Origin: Desulfobacteraceae bacterium
GTDB lineage: Bacteria; Desulfobacterota; DSM-4660; Desulfatiglandales; Desulfatiglandaceae
Direction of reading: 5' to 3'
Length of the DNA: 64,000 nucleotides
Assembly: GCA_030613055.1 (NCBI GenBank)
Contig: JAUWMR010000001.1
Coordinates: 62,001-126,000 of the forward strand
The translations under genes were made by a program, and so were the position numbers. Positions 44,395 to 48,035 of the stretch are shown here, one piece after another (the stretch's first letter is position 1; each line of letters starts with the position of its first letter). A model generated the notes under the pieces. It ran no database searches and was not told the DNA's origin. It worked only from the letters and a program-made list of their open reading frames with translations.

Positions 44395-45115
44395 TTCATA
44401 TCACCTCCGCAATCTGATTGGTGAGTCATAACTCCAGCGCATTGCTTAAAAAAACAGCGCTCCTGAAACTTGATAAAACCCAACTGTATGCCAAAAAACG
44501 CCTAAAAACCTTTTTCACCTCCCTATAAACTAATCGCCTCCTTTCCTAACAATAGACTTGGTTAAGTGGTTAAAATTATGCACATATTCGTTTTTAGTCC
44601 CGCCATGGCGGGAGACGTTCACCATTTCGACAGTTACAAGCCCTTGAAATAAGGACAATAATTTTCCAACTCAACTAATTAACAAATCTGAACAAGCATC
44701 TTTTATCATAACATCGTTAACATCGCCATCTATGTCAACCCTTAAATTGTAGCAGTAAAACAGAAGACAATATACATATCCAGAGTCGTAAATGCAATGA
44801 AAAAGCCGGCTTTATCCAAGTTCAACTATTCCCATTACCTATTCACCTACCCTATAATTATAATCCGCCTTATCCTTCACTTCTCACTCCTTACTTTTCA
44901 CTCCTCACTATTAACCCCGACTTCCCTGCATCGGCAGTCAACCTGGTCGGTGACAGGTCCCGGGCGGCATTTCCGGCCATATTTCACGTAGTTGACATTG
45001 GGAAATGCCACCAGCGCCTGAGGGAAACAGTCAGATTCTTTGTCCCCGAAACACTGAGCAAATACAGAGAATGGTAATAGTTTAGCTCTATGAAAAAATC
45101 GATCATAGATTGTAG
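44395..45115. other. Non-coding region upstream of livJ
   Basis: About 720 bp without a convincing gene; a 64-codon frame at 44797-44991 has no ribosome site and no protein-like pattern. It should hold the liv operon promoter (minus strand), which could not be fixed. Words such as CTCCTTACTTTTCACTCCTC and the inverted pair near 44960-45010 (GGCATTTCC...GGAAATGCC) are the only visible structure. AT-rich, possibly degraded. Confidence 0.4.
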
Positions 45116-45336
45116 GGACGTGGGGATCTCTTTTTTAAAAGCCGCATCACAAATTCACCCAATGCTAACAACACGCCCCCTGGGCTTTGACCATGGGCGC
45201 TGAACAGGCAGGGATGGGGTCTTAATTATGAAGATTCCCGTATGGGGCTGTCCTTTGCTTGACTGGAAAGGCCTAACTGCCGTGCCATGTAATGGTGTAA
45301 GCATATGCGGCTTTTAAAAAAGAGATCCCTATGTCC
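45116..45336 (+). repeat. Putative MITE with ~31-bp terminal inverted repeats
   Basis: The left end (45116-45147) and right end (45305-45336) are inverted copies: GGAC.T.GGGATCTCTTTTTTAAAAG and onward through CCGCAT. Twenty-five consecutive bases (45123-45147 against 45305-45329) are identical, and outside that only two changes occur. Length 221 bp, no coding sense inside. TA-like bases flank each side. A diverged single end occurs at 45805-45829. Confidence 0.8.
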
Positions 45337-45450
45337 TATTCCTGATTTTTAAAGGGCTAAAGTGTTACAGAGAATAAATATTTATGCGCAAAAGTATTGC
45401 AAACCATAAATCTTGCCTGCTATATGAAGATATCACGAAAAGGATCTGCC

Positions 45451-45774
45451 ATGAATTATTATACTGTCAAAGATATGGAGCCAAAAAAACTGGCGGAAGG
45501 TGTTGAGATGCGGGTTATTCCCGGCGAAAAGATGACCATGGTCTTTTTCCGTATTGAACCGGGCATTAAGATACCTGAACATGCCCATCCCCATGAACAG
45601 GTGGGTACCGTACTTAAGGGCTCCATTGAACTGATTATTAATGACGAGAAAAGGATTGTAAATCAGGGAGATGCCTATCACGTCCCTTCTAATGTGATAC
45701 ACGGCGGAAGGTGTTTGGAATCAACTGCCGAGGTTCTTGAGATCTTTTCTCCCCCGAGAGAAGATTACTTGTAA
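45451..45774 (+). CDS. Small cupin-domain protein
   Basis: 107 residues from ATG 45451, with AAAGGA at the right distance. A single cupin_2 barrel: motif 1 EHAHPHEQVGTVLKG (metal His/His/Glu positions present), then VNQGDAYHVPSNVIHGG as motif 2 with His. Metal-dependent sugar or keto-acid binding is usual for such small cupins; the ligand is unknown. It stands alone between the MITE and the polysaccharide region. An open frame back to 45397 lacks family support. Confidence 0.85.
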   Translation: MNYYTVKDMEPKKLAEGVEMRVIPGEKMTMVFFRIEPGIKIPEHAHPHEQVGTVLKGSIELIINDEKRIVNQGDAYHVPSNVIHGGRCLESTAEVLEIFSPPREDYL

Positions 45775-45804
45775 TACCTTATCTCTTTGAAAACAGTTTC
45801 TGGG

Positions 45805-45829
45805 CATGGGAATCTCTTCTTTAAAATAG
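45805..45829 (+). repeat. Solo, diverged end of the 45116 element family
   Basis: CATGGGAATCTCTTCTTTAA followed by AATAGCC matches the terminal repeat at 45123-45147 with a few changes. No partner end was found within 1 kb on the right, so it is probably a relic. Confidence 0.5.
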
Positions 45830-45842
45830 CCCTGTCTTCTCC

Positions 45843-48035
45843 GTGTGGGAATGTCATTTGGAAAAAGCCGCTCTAATTATCTATGCTATCGTGTTAGTCA
45901 TAAGCCCTTTACTTTTCGGGGCAATAAATACCTATGCTTACACGATGATGTCTGTGGGGGTCTTAACCGCCTCGTTCCTGCTGGTCATAAAAAACGTCAA
46001 AAAAGATAAGAAAACCAGTGTCTGGGGGTTCTCATTTCCCGGCACCAGCCTTAATTTCCTCTTTCTCATCATATTAGCATTCCTTATTTTCCAGGTTGTT
46101 CCCTTGCCCGACTCTCTTCTTGGTTTATTATCTCCGGAAGCCGAGGTGGTTGGGGGCAAATCCATCCCCGCATCCGGCATTGCAGTGAAAAATGCCGGGT
46201 TCAACGAGTGGTTTTCTCTATCTCCCTATTACTATCCCGTTCGCATGTCTATTGTAAGATGGATAGTCTACGGCCTGTTTTTTTTCGGCCTGATTCAGGT
46301 GCTAAATTCCAGAAAGAGGATTGAGGCGCTGGTCATTTTGATATTGATACTCGCCTGTTTCGATACCCTTTACGGCCTGATGGAAACCTATTCCGGATCT
46401 CACCATATCTGGTGGTACAAAAAAAAGAGTTATCTTGAGGATGTAACAGGGACATATATCAACCACAATCACTTTGCAGGATTAATGGAGATGTGCCTGC
46501 TCCTGGCCGCTGCCTATGTAGCCTCACTCTCAGAGAGAAAAAGGAAAAGAAAGACAGCCGCCAGACATAAGACCAGCCTGAGACGCAGGATTTCACAACT
46601 TTTATCCGGGGAGCAGCGCTTCAACAAAAGGATCCTTGTTCTCTTTTCCGCCGTCGTTATAGGTATCGGGCTTTTCTTCTCTTCTTCCAGGGGGGGCATC
46701 CTTGCGGCATCAGGGGCCATGCTGTGCATGAGCCTTTTGTTTGTGTTCAGAAAGGCACACCGGCAAAAGGGTCTTATCCTCTTATTTCTCTTTTTGATCA
46801 TTTCTGTTTACGCCCTTCATATCGGGGCAGATTATACGTTAGGCAGGTTTGAATATTTTGATCAAAGCTTTAAGGAAAGAAGCAGGTACGCAAAAAAAAC
46901 CCTCGATATGTTTTACGACTACAAAACAACAGGTGTCGGTGTGGGTAATTTCCGCTATGCCTATCCCAAATATCAGGCTATTGAAGACCGGATTTTCTAC
47001 ATGAGACACGCCACCAATGACTGGGTAGAATTCCTTGCTGATGCCGGAATTATTGGTATGTGTTTATTGCTTGCAGGGATATCATATTACCTTTATCGCA
47101 TAATGAAATTATGGAAAAAGAGAACAGACCCCTTTGCCATTGGATTAGGGGTCGCGCCGGTAGCGGCCATGACGGCCATTGCTATTCACTCCTATTCGGA
47201 TTTTAATCTGCATTTTCCTGCCAACTTCCTGGTGCTTGTGGCGATTGTGGCTATCGGCTACAGCGCCCTGCATTTGGAAAGACATCATGGCAGGGATAAA
47301 ACATTTATTCGCTACCATATCCAGCCCCTGAAATACAAAGGATTCCTGACACTGTTCTTTGTCTCCGGAATAGTTGTCTGGAGCGGGTTCTGGGCAGTTC
47401 GTCATTTTGTTGCCGAGTGTTATTGCAATACGGTAACGGAATATTCTTCTTTAAACAGGGATATATACCCATCCCTTAAAGAAATTCAATCCGCCATCGC
47501 ATGGGATGCCAGCAATGCCCGATACTGGCAAAAACTGGTTGTAAGACATATGCGGTTTCGTGAATCACGTATCTTAGATGAGGATTGGGACATTGAAGAC
47601 AGGCGCAAACTGCAAATGGAAATCATAGGGGCATTTGAGAAGGCAGTAACACTAAACCCCTTTGAGCCGCAGTATCACGCGCGGTTAGGTTGGGAGTACT
47701 CTACTATGATGGAGGATCCGGATCATCAGGAGAAATGGCTTCGCGCGGCAGACATATCCATGGAAAGGGCCGCCTTTTTTGCAGGGGATCAAAATCCGGG
47801 TCTTCACATAGATATTGGCAATTATTGGGTGGTTCGATCCAAACAAACCATAGGGCTTGCCATCTCGGAACACCGGTCAGCCTGGGCAAAGGCGTGCTGG
47901 CATTATAAAAAAGCGCAAAGCCTGGGAATTGAAAACAGAAAAGCATTGAGAGACAGGATAGTAGAATTCGTGTGGAAATTTTACCCTGATTATGAGATTG
48001 TAAGTGAAGTCGTCCTCTCTGTGAATAAACCATAA
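45843..48035 (+). CDS. O-antigen ligase/polymerase-like membrane protein (Wzy_C family)
   Basis: 730 residues, about 12 membrane spans with a large loop before the Wzy_C region (~355-440: YDYKTTGVGVGNFRYAYPKYQAI, then HATNDWVEFLADAGIIGM, including the conserved His). The C-terminal ~200 residues are helical and soluble with TPR-like character (AFEKAVTLNPFEPQYHARLGWEY). Ligases or polymerases of this family join undecaprenyl-linked glycans to lipid A, to each other, or to proteins; the TPR tail suggests a partner protein. It starts at GTG 45843 or a later codon. It leads the glycan region. Confidence 0.82.
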   Translation: MWECHLEKAALIIYAIVLVISPLLFGAINTYAYTMMSVGVLTASFLLVIKNVKKDKKTSVWGFSFPGTSLNFLFLIILAFLIFQVVPLPDSLLGLLSPEAEVVGGKSIPASGIAVKNAGFNEWFSLSPYYYPVRMSIVRWIVYGLFFFGLIQVLNSRKRIEALVILILILACFDTLYGLMETYSGSHHIWWYKKKSYLEDVTGTYINHNHFAGLMEMCLLLAAAYVASLSERKRKRKTAARHKTSLRRRISQLLSGEQRFNKRILVLFSAVVIGIGLFFSSSRGGILAASGAMLCMSLLFVFRKAHRQKGLILLFLFLIISVYALHIGADYTLGRFEYFDQSFKERSRYAKKTLDMFYDYKTTGVGVGNFRYAYPKYQAIEDRIFYMRHATNDWVEFLADAGIIGMCLLLAGISYYLYRIMKLWKKRTDPFAIGLGVAPVAAMTAIAIHSYSDFNLHFPANFLVLVAIVAIGYSALHLERHHGRDKTFIRYHIQPLKYKGFLTLFFVSGIVVWSGFWAVRHFVAECYCNTVTEYSSLNRDIYPSLKEIQSAIAWDASNARYWQKLVVRHMRFRESRILDEDWDIEDRRKLQMEIIGAFEKAVTLNPFEPQYHARLGWEYSTMMEDPDHQEKWLRAADISMERAAFFAGDQNPGLHIDIGNYWVVRSKQTIGLAISEHRSAWAKACWHYKKAQSLGIENRKALRDRIVEFVWKFYPDYEIVSEVVLSVNKP

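Follow-up and report, generated by a model that had tools for sequence, protein, structure and literature searches.

An IS66-type MITE in a Desulfobacteraceae genome and its probable mobilisation in trans

What is the mobile unit in a stretch of DNA where two long inverted arms face each other across a short core, and which enzyme would move it? The question is raised by a window of 64,000 nucleotides (the whole stretch of DNA analysed here; C84:62001-126000) from the genome of a Desulfobacteraceae bacterium (G000; 4.26 Mb, 97 contigs, 95.6% complete). The arms, at 45116-45147 on the forward strand and 45305-45336 on the reverse strand, are 32 nt long, 94% complementary and 157 nt apart, and the 25 consecutive identical bases that they hold, GGGATCTCTTTTTTAAAAGCCGCAT, are not due to chance. 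In the original prediction these arms were the 31-bp ends of a 221-bp MITE. We find that the class assignment stands, given many copies, target duplications and an empty site, and that the boundaries do not: the element is 295 bp long and ends in a 23-bp outer repeat. Judged from sequence comparison, 45074-45368 is very probably a MITE spread in trans by a DDE transposase of the IS66 group, which would recognise the 23-bp outer repeat and duplicate 8 bp on insertion.

Boundaries and copies of the element

Alignment of 25 long copies, extended by 40 bp of flanking sequence, together with 59 end segments from loci L001-L030, places the limit of conservation at an outer 23-bp inverted repeat, GTAAYANTTTAGCYCTTTGAAAA, beyond which the flanks are unrelated. 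Since the copies align past the arms as far as this repeat, and a target duplication lies outside it, the element spans 45074-45368 (forward strand, 295 bp). It begins with the left outer terminal repeat (45074-45096, forward strand; GTAATAGTTTAGCTCTATGAAAA; C84:107074-107096, one mismatch), which matches the ends of IS66 elements, and closes with the right one (45346-45368, reverse strand; GTAACACTTTAGCCCTTTAAAAA read inward; C84:107346-107368, one mismatch). Between them, a long linker of type B (45097-45115, forward strand) and a short linker of type A (45337-45345, reverse strand), both defined by comparison of long copies, adjoin the left and right inner arms, and these enclose the core (45148-45304, forward strand). 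The arms, once taken for the ends of the element, are internal; they carry an inner motif of about GRCATGGGGATCTCTTTTTT. No ORF of at least 60 aa is listed inside 45074-45368. The hairpin is strong (z -8.8 as RNA and -9.65 as DNA), and Rfam yields nothing at gathering score but one tRNA elsewhere; permissive matches within 45000-45900 have E values of at least 6 and are taken as chance.

At up to three mismatches a 19-mer matches three times in the window, against 0.05 expected from shuffles, and 98 times in the genome, against 2 for its reversed control; the outer end matches 156 times in the genome, its reversed control not once. A weight matrix made from 57 of the 59 ends and run over the fetched loci of this genome returned 43 inward-facing pairs. 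One of these, 4203 bp long and situated in C66, was set aside. The other 42 are two-ended copies with outer 23-bp repeats, 15 of them short (70-107 bp) and 27 long (294-391 bp), a number that is not a genome total, as loci were chosen for matching the element or an end. The family is thus present in dozens of copies, and the window copy, whose standing as a MITE had been made to hang on further copies, is not alone. Its closest relative matches it with 93% identity over 226 bases, and for the other copies identity, taken over most of the length, falls from 92% to about 71%, so that the recent activity once proposed is not supported in this genome. None of the 42 copies lies within an ORF of at least 110 aa by a crude ORF call; their gene context is tandem in 27 cases, divergent in nine, convergent in five and unassigned in one, as raw counts. 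The C66 pair was considered as an autonomous element and rejected, there being no transposase in its interior, which holds what we take from the translations to be a CBS-domain-like, a response-regulator-like and a DASS-transporter-like ORF; two decayed copies lying side by side probably account for it. Short inserts occur at fixed places within copies L008, L016, L014, L020, L027 and L015, among them CCCGCCTGCCGTACTGCGGGCAGG in a linker and TCGGAGCGTAGCGTAGATCCCGCTATCGGGGC in the core, and look like nested REP-like repeats.

The short class includes elements of 71 bp, in which two outer ends surround about 23 bp holding the motif once. Such a minimal version, its right end decayed, lies at 45771-45841 (forward strand) in the window, and 45805-45829, previously described as a diverged solo end, is its middle. 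The GTAA at 45771-45774 provides the cupin-like gene with its TAA stop (45772-45774), and the cupin-like protein ends three residues earlier than its counterpart in G019, a genome of another genus. A long copy resembles a core set between two minimal copies that each lack the inner tip.

Target duplications and empty sites

A direct repeat of 8 bp directly outside the outer ends is perfect in 13 of the 42 copies and matches at 7 or more of 8 positions in 25, where shuffled left-right pairing gives means of 0.39 and 1.0 of 42; the remaining 17 copies match at 6 of 8 or fewer. When duplication lengths from 4 to 12 bp were tested, the only other perfect match was one of 9 bp in a single copy of the 42. 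At the window copy the flanking duplication, which had been singled out for checking, is found outside the 23-bp ends as AGAGAATG (45066-45073) and AGAGAATA (45369-45376), identical at 7 of 8 positions. Insertion would duplicate 8 bp of an A+T-rich target.

Empty sites in relatives had likewise been proposed as a check, and a clean one exists for copy L016, a 384-bp element with the duplication GCTTTTTC between two genes that, from their translations, are presumably cdsA and dxr. Its flanks, joined after removal of the element and one duplication, were compared with 46 genomes of the family, its own included. In G019 they align without a gap over 795 columns, 616 of them identical, and the target is present once. 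At the same site the two aligned blocks are 24 to 30 bases apart in three further genomes (loci L255-L257) and 367 bases apart in a fourth (locus L258), where no MITE end was read in the intervening sequence. At the window locus the substrate-binding and cupin-like genes are arranged in G019 as they are here, and the intergenic distance is 734 bp in G019 and 1056 bp in the window; the 322 extra bases are near 295 + 8. Base-level alignment of the window copy's flanks to G019 failed because the intergenic sequence is too diverged, and the empty site there is therefore judged by spacing only.

These observations bear on whether the repeat is mobile at all. A strong hairpin and 42 copies that all lie outside called ORFs would also suit a non-mobile palindromic intergenic repeat of ERIC- or REP-like kind, serving as an RNA hairpin or a regulatory site. 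Exact 8-bp duplications, an empty site and ends nearly identical to those of IS66 elements speak against this, and we hold it to be scarcely credible; as a complete explanation it is refuted by the duplications and the empty site. The hairpin may still have a secondary function in a mobile MITE.

IS66 elements with matching ends

Scanned at up to two mismatches, the outer end pattern is present in 46 of 85 genomes of the order, with 0 in controls. In one of them (G048) it bounds an element of 2364 bp, L136, both of whose outer ends match the pattern without mismatch and which encloses two genes; it belongs to the record Deltaproteobacteria bacterium isolate Meg19_1012_Bin_230. One gene encodes a transposase (PF03050, 1.9e-37) that scores above the IS66 equivalog cut-off (NF033517, 1.6e-72), and the IS66 zinc finger (PF13005) is likewise found in the partner. 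The other encodes a DruA-like protein of 292 aa (PF14236, 6.8e-36), the end of whose gene is overlapped by the start of the transposase gene. Among 31 loci encoding relatives of this transposase, 19 have an outer end scoring at least 25 next to it (a single assembly, CROMO_BS_46_3, supplies 13 of them); no outer end in shuffled sequence scores 8 or more. Two further IS66 loci with such an end are found in G083 and G059. Four two-ended IS66 copies had their flanks inspected by eye: L174 has a perfect 8-bp duplication, AAAGAGTC, and L172, L173 and L175 have none. Nine loci include the transposase N-terminus together with at least about 900 bp of upstream DNA, and in eight of them a DruA-like gene directly precedes the transposase, L177 being the one without; DruA-domain genes lie, for example, at L136:1236-2114, L174:2633-3514 and L175:852-1748. 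The Druantia defence system is not indicated, since what is present is the Pfam DruA domain only and neither partner protein has a PADLOC match. The partner thus consists of a DruA-like gene and a transposase gene and lacks the classic three-gene layout of TnpA, TnpB and transposase. IS66 members with a single transposase are known.

Ends, duplications and the ends shared with intact IS66 elements together argue that the MITE is moved by a transposase of the IS66 group. Several features count against this: the MITE ends begin GTAAYA, and not GTAAGCG as quoted for IS66; 17 of the 42 copies match at 6 or fewer of 8 positions in the duplication; and of the four IS66 copies inspected by eye L174 alone has a duplication. 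The partner ends themselves, 23 bp long, start with GTAACA and have only GTAA in common with GTAAGCG. Could a transposase of another family with similar ends be responsible? The genome under study has no IS66 gene, as this reading would have it. Yet the ends vary in step with the IS66 transposase sequence: in L178-L180 the transposase is 54-56% identical and the ends are changed, for instance to GTGTGACTTTAGCCATTTGAAAG, with scores of 10.0-10.7. GTAA ends and 8-bp duplications are, moreover, IS66 traits in the available text of PMC11946415 and PMC6778807. A mover from another family is accordingly very improbable. What the MITE and the IS have in common is the terminal 23-26 bp, too little to demonstrate descent by internal deletion.

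A question remains, where is the partner in the genome that carries the MITE? The search for a transposase around the ends, proposed with the original prediction, fails there and succeeds elsewhere, where IS66 transposase genes lie between matching ends. The assembly of the genome under study has no match to PF03050, to a transposase of the L136 type or to a DruA-like protein, in keeping with the absence of a transposase already noted for the window. For this reason we infer mobilisation in trans by an IS66 partner from a comparison across genomes. The assembly, 95.6% complete in 97 contigs, may be incomplete, since repeats break assemblies, and a MITE can outlive its partner; we therefore do not hold the partner's absence against membership of the MITE class. 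The source IS66 element would have been lost later from the lineage or be missing from the assembly, where it may have fallen between contigs. Given the absent partner and copies no closer than 93% (the others from 92% to about 71%), the simplest reading is that the family no longer moves in this genome, and the MITE is probably now stranded.

In other genomes, a 1.86-kb stretch at G073:C50 was considered as an autonomous candidate and rejected; it consists of two separate small elements of 75 and 289 bp around a gene that we take to be MFS-transporter-like. In G059 and G051 many contigs end roughly 60-220 bases inside or next to outer ends that are nearly identical; very similar high-copy elements would seem to have broken the assembly, and the families may have been recently active there.

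The inner motif and relations to known elements

Across the 27 long copies the inner arms are more alike (95%) than the cores (91%) or the outer ends (85%). Homogenisation of the arms within copies is not seen in this set, left and right arms of the same copy being 94.8% identical and arms of different copies 95.0-95.1%. Relative to the long and short linkers the core lies in one orientation, that of the window copy, in seven long copies and in the other in 20; it has therefore been inverted at least once. The inner arms are not the recombination ends: they give rise to the long hairpin and would mark the module boundary at which the core was inverted.

The greater likeness of the arms and the two orientations of the core might also suggest an inner module of 221 bp that is mobile in its own right, has 31-bp ends and sits nested in an IS66-type mini-element. 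Two cases in other genomes point the same way. One insertion, found in G036 and G025, consists of the inner module flanked by nothing more than decayed outer ends, and in an element of 948 bp in G046 (L138; G046:C129:475-1422) the first motif-bounded module encloses another (element positions about 257-573). This latter element looks like an enlarged, putatively non-coding MITE by reading of its sequence and by BLAST. Against an independent module, it is the outer repeat that the 8-bp duplication flanks, and the empty site lacks the whole element; the palindrome runs outward past the arms, so that no direct repeat is recognised at the inner boundary; and in the 71-bp elements the motif stands once, directly between two outer ends. 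G036 and G025 themselves have weak GTA-starting remnants near the expected positions of the outer ends: best scores in the four flanks run from -9.1 to 2.5, against a background 95th percentile of -8.1, with one flank below that percentile and not GTA-starting. We consider nesting of an independent module unlikely in the extreme, though a shade less so than a mover from another family, and retain a single MITE ending in the outer repeat.

How widely, then, does the motif accompany the outer ends? Among 84 distinct outer ends from fetched MITE loci in other genomes (a set without IS locus L113), a motif scoring at least 0 lies inward of 34, against none on the outward side and none in shuffled sequence; these 34 come from 13 genomes of three families. 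The other 50 have no inner motif; among them are all the ends scored in G059 (seven) and in G053 (eight). In the latter genome L250, L230 and L226 have the same outer ends around a different palindromic interior (GGATTCCGTGATCAAGTCACGGAAT) that is without the motif. In most two-ended cases the motif stands 8-15 nt inside one end and 17-56 nt inside the other. Cores are mostly unrelated between motif-bearing genomes, and a diverged core is common to G073 and some genomes of the family studied here. The IS66 elements examined showed no such motif at their ends. Most likely, the inner arms reflect shared ancestry plus some constraint. A bolder and rather doubtful proposal is a two-tier MITE lineage across the order, in which outer IS66 ends would serve transposition and the conserved inner motif would add another functional site (for binding of a host factor or recombinase, or as a hairpin) bounding an exchangeable, invertible core, so that ends spread while cores are swapped.

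The available text on IS66 describes an 8-bp direct repeat and a 23-bp inverted repeat starting GTAAGCG (PMC11946415), a duplication of 8 bp (PMC6778807; given as DR 8 in a table of PMC3281130), and ends of GTAAGCGTCCGG together with members that carry passengers (PMC12888890). Like IS66, the present MITE has GTAA-starting repeats of about 23 bp and an 8-bp duplication, and its outer repeat is almost identical to ends of the L136/L174 type; unlike IS66 it is without coding capacity and shares only the 23-26 terminal bases. The partner differs from classic IS66 in its upstream DruA-like gene, its lack of the three-gene layout and its GTAACA ends. MITEPsy1 and MITEPsy2, as presented in the accessible part of PMC3189936, are likewise short, non-coding, bounded by the ends of a known IS or transposon and thought to move in trans. 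Their ends are those of ISPsy2 (entered in a table as IS5?) or of a Tn3-family element, and the family described here is set apart by IS66-type ends, 8-bp duplications, an inner arm pair and 71-bp minimal forms. The TIMEs derived from Tn3, in the corresponding portion of PMC4133298, are also non-autonomous miniature elements whose partner was identified from the ends, a Tn3-family one there and IS66 here. No IS66-derived MITE appears in the available parts of PMC3189936, PMC12888890, PMC9769881 and PMC9208149, subscription papers and ISfinder lying outside the search, and IS66 occurs 0 times in the accessible text of a review of prokaryotic MITEs (PMC10969869). Within literature other than subscription papers we found no match for DruA with a transposase, for Druantia with IS66, or for non-autonomous MITEs in Deltaproteobacteria.

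Through its ends, an orphan MITE family gains a named partner in the IS66 group, and MITEs are tied to a little-described IS66 layout with a DruA-like gene. The inner motif stays constant while cores change and is absent from the partner, which raises the question of what, besides transposase binding, conserves MITE sequence. For the organisms themselves, a group of uncultured bacteria within one order, the family accounts for intergenic repeats that form hairpins and run to dozens.
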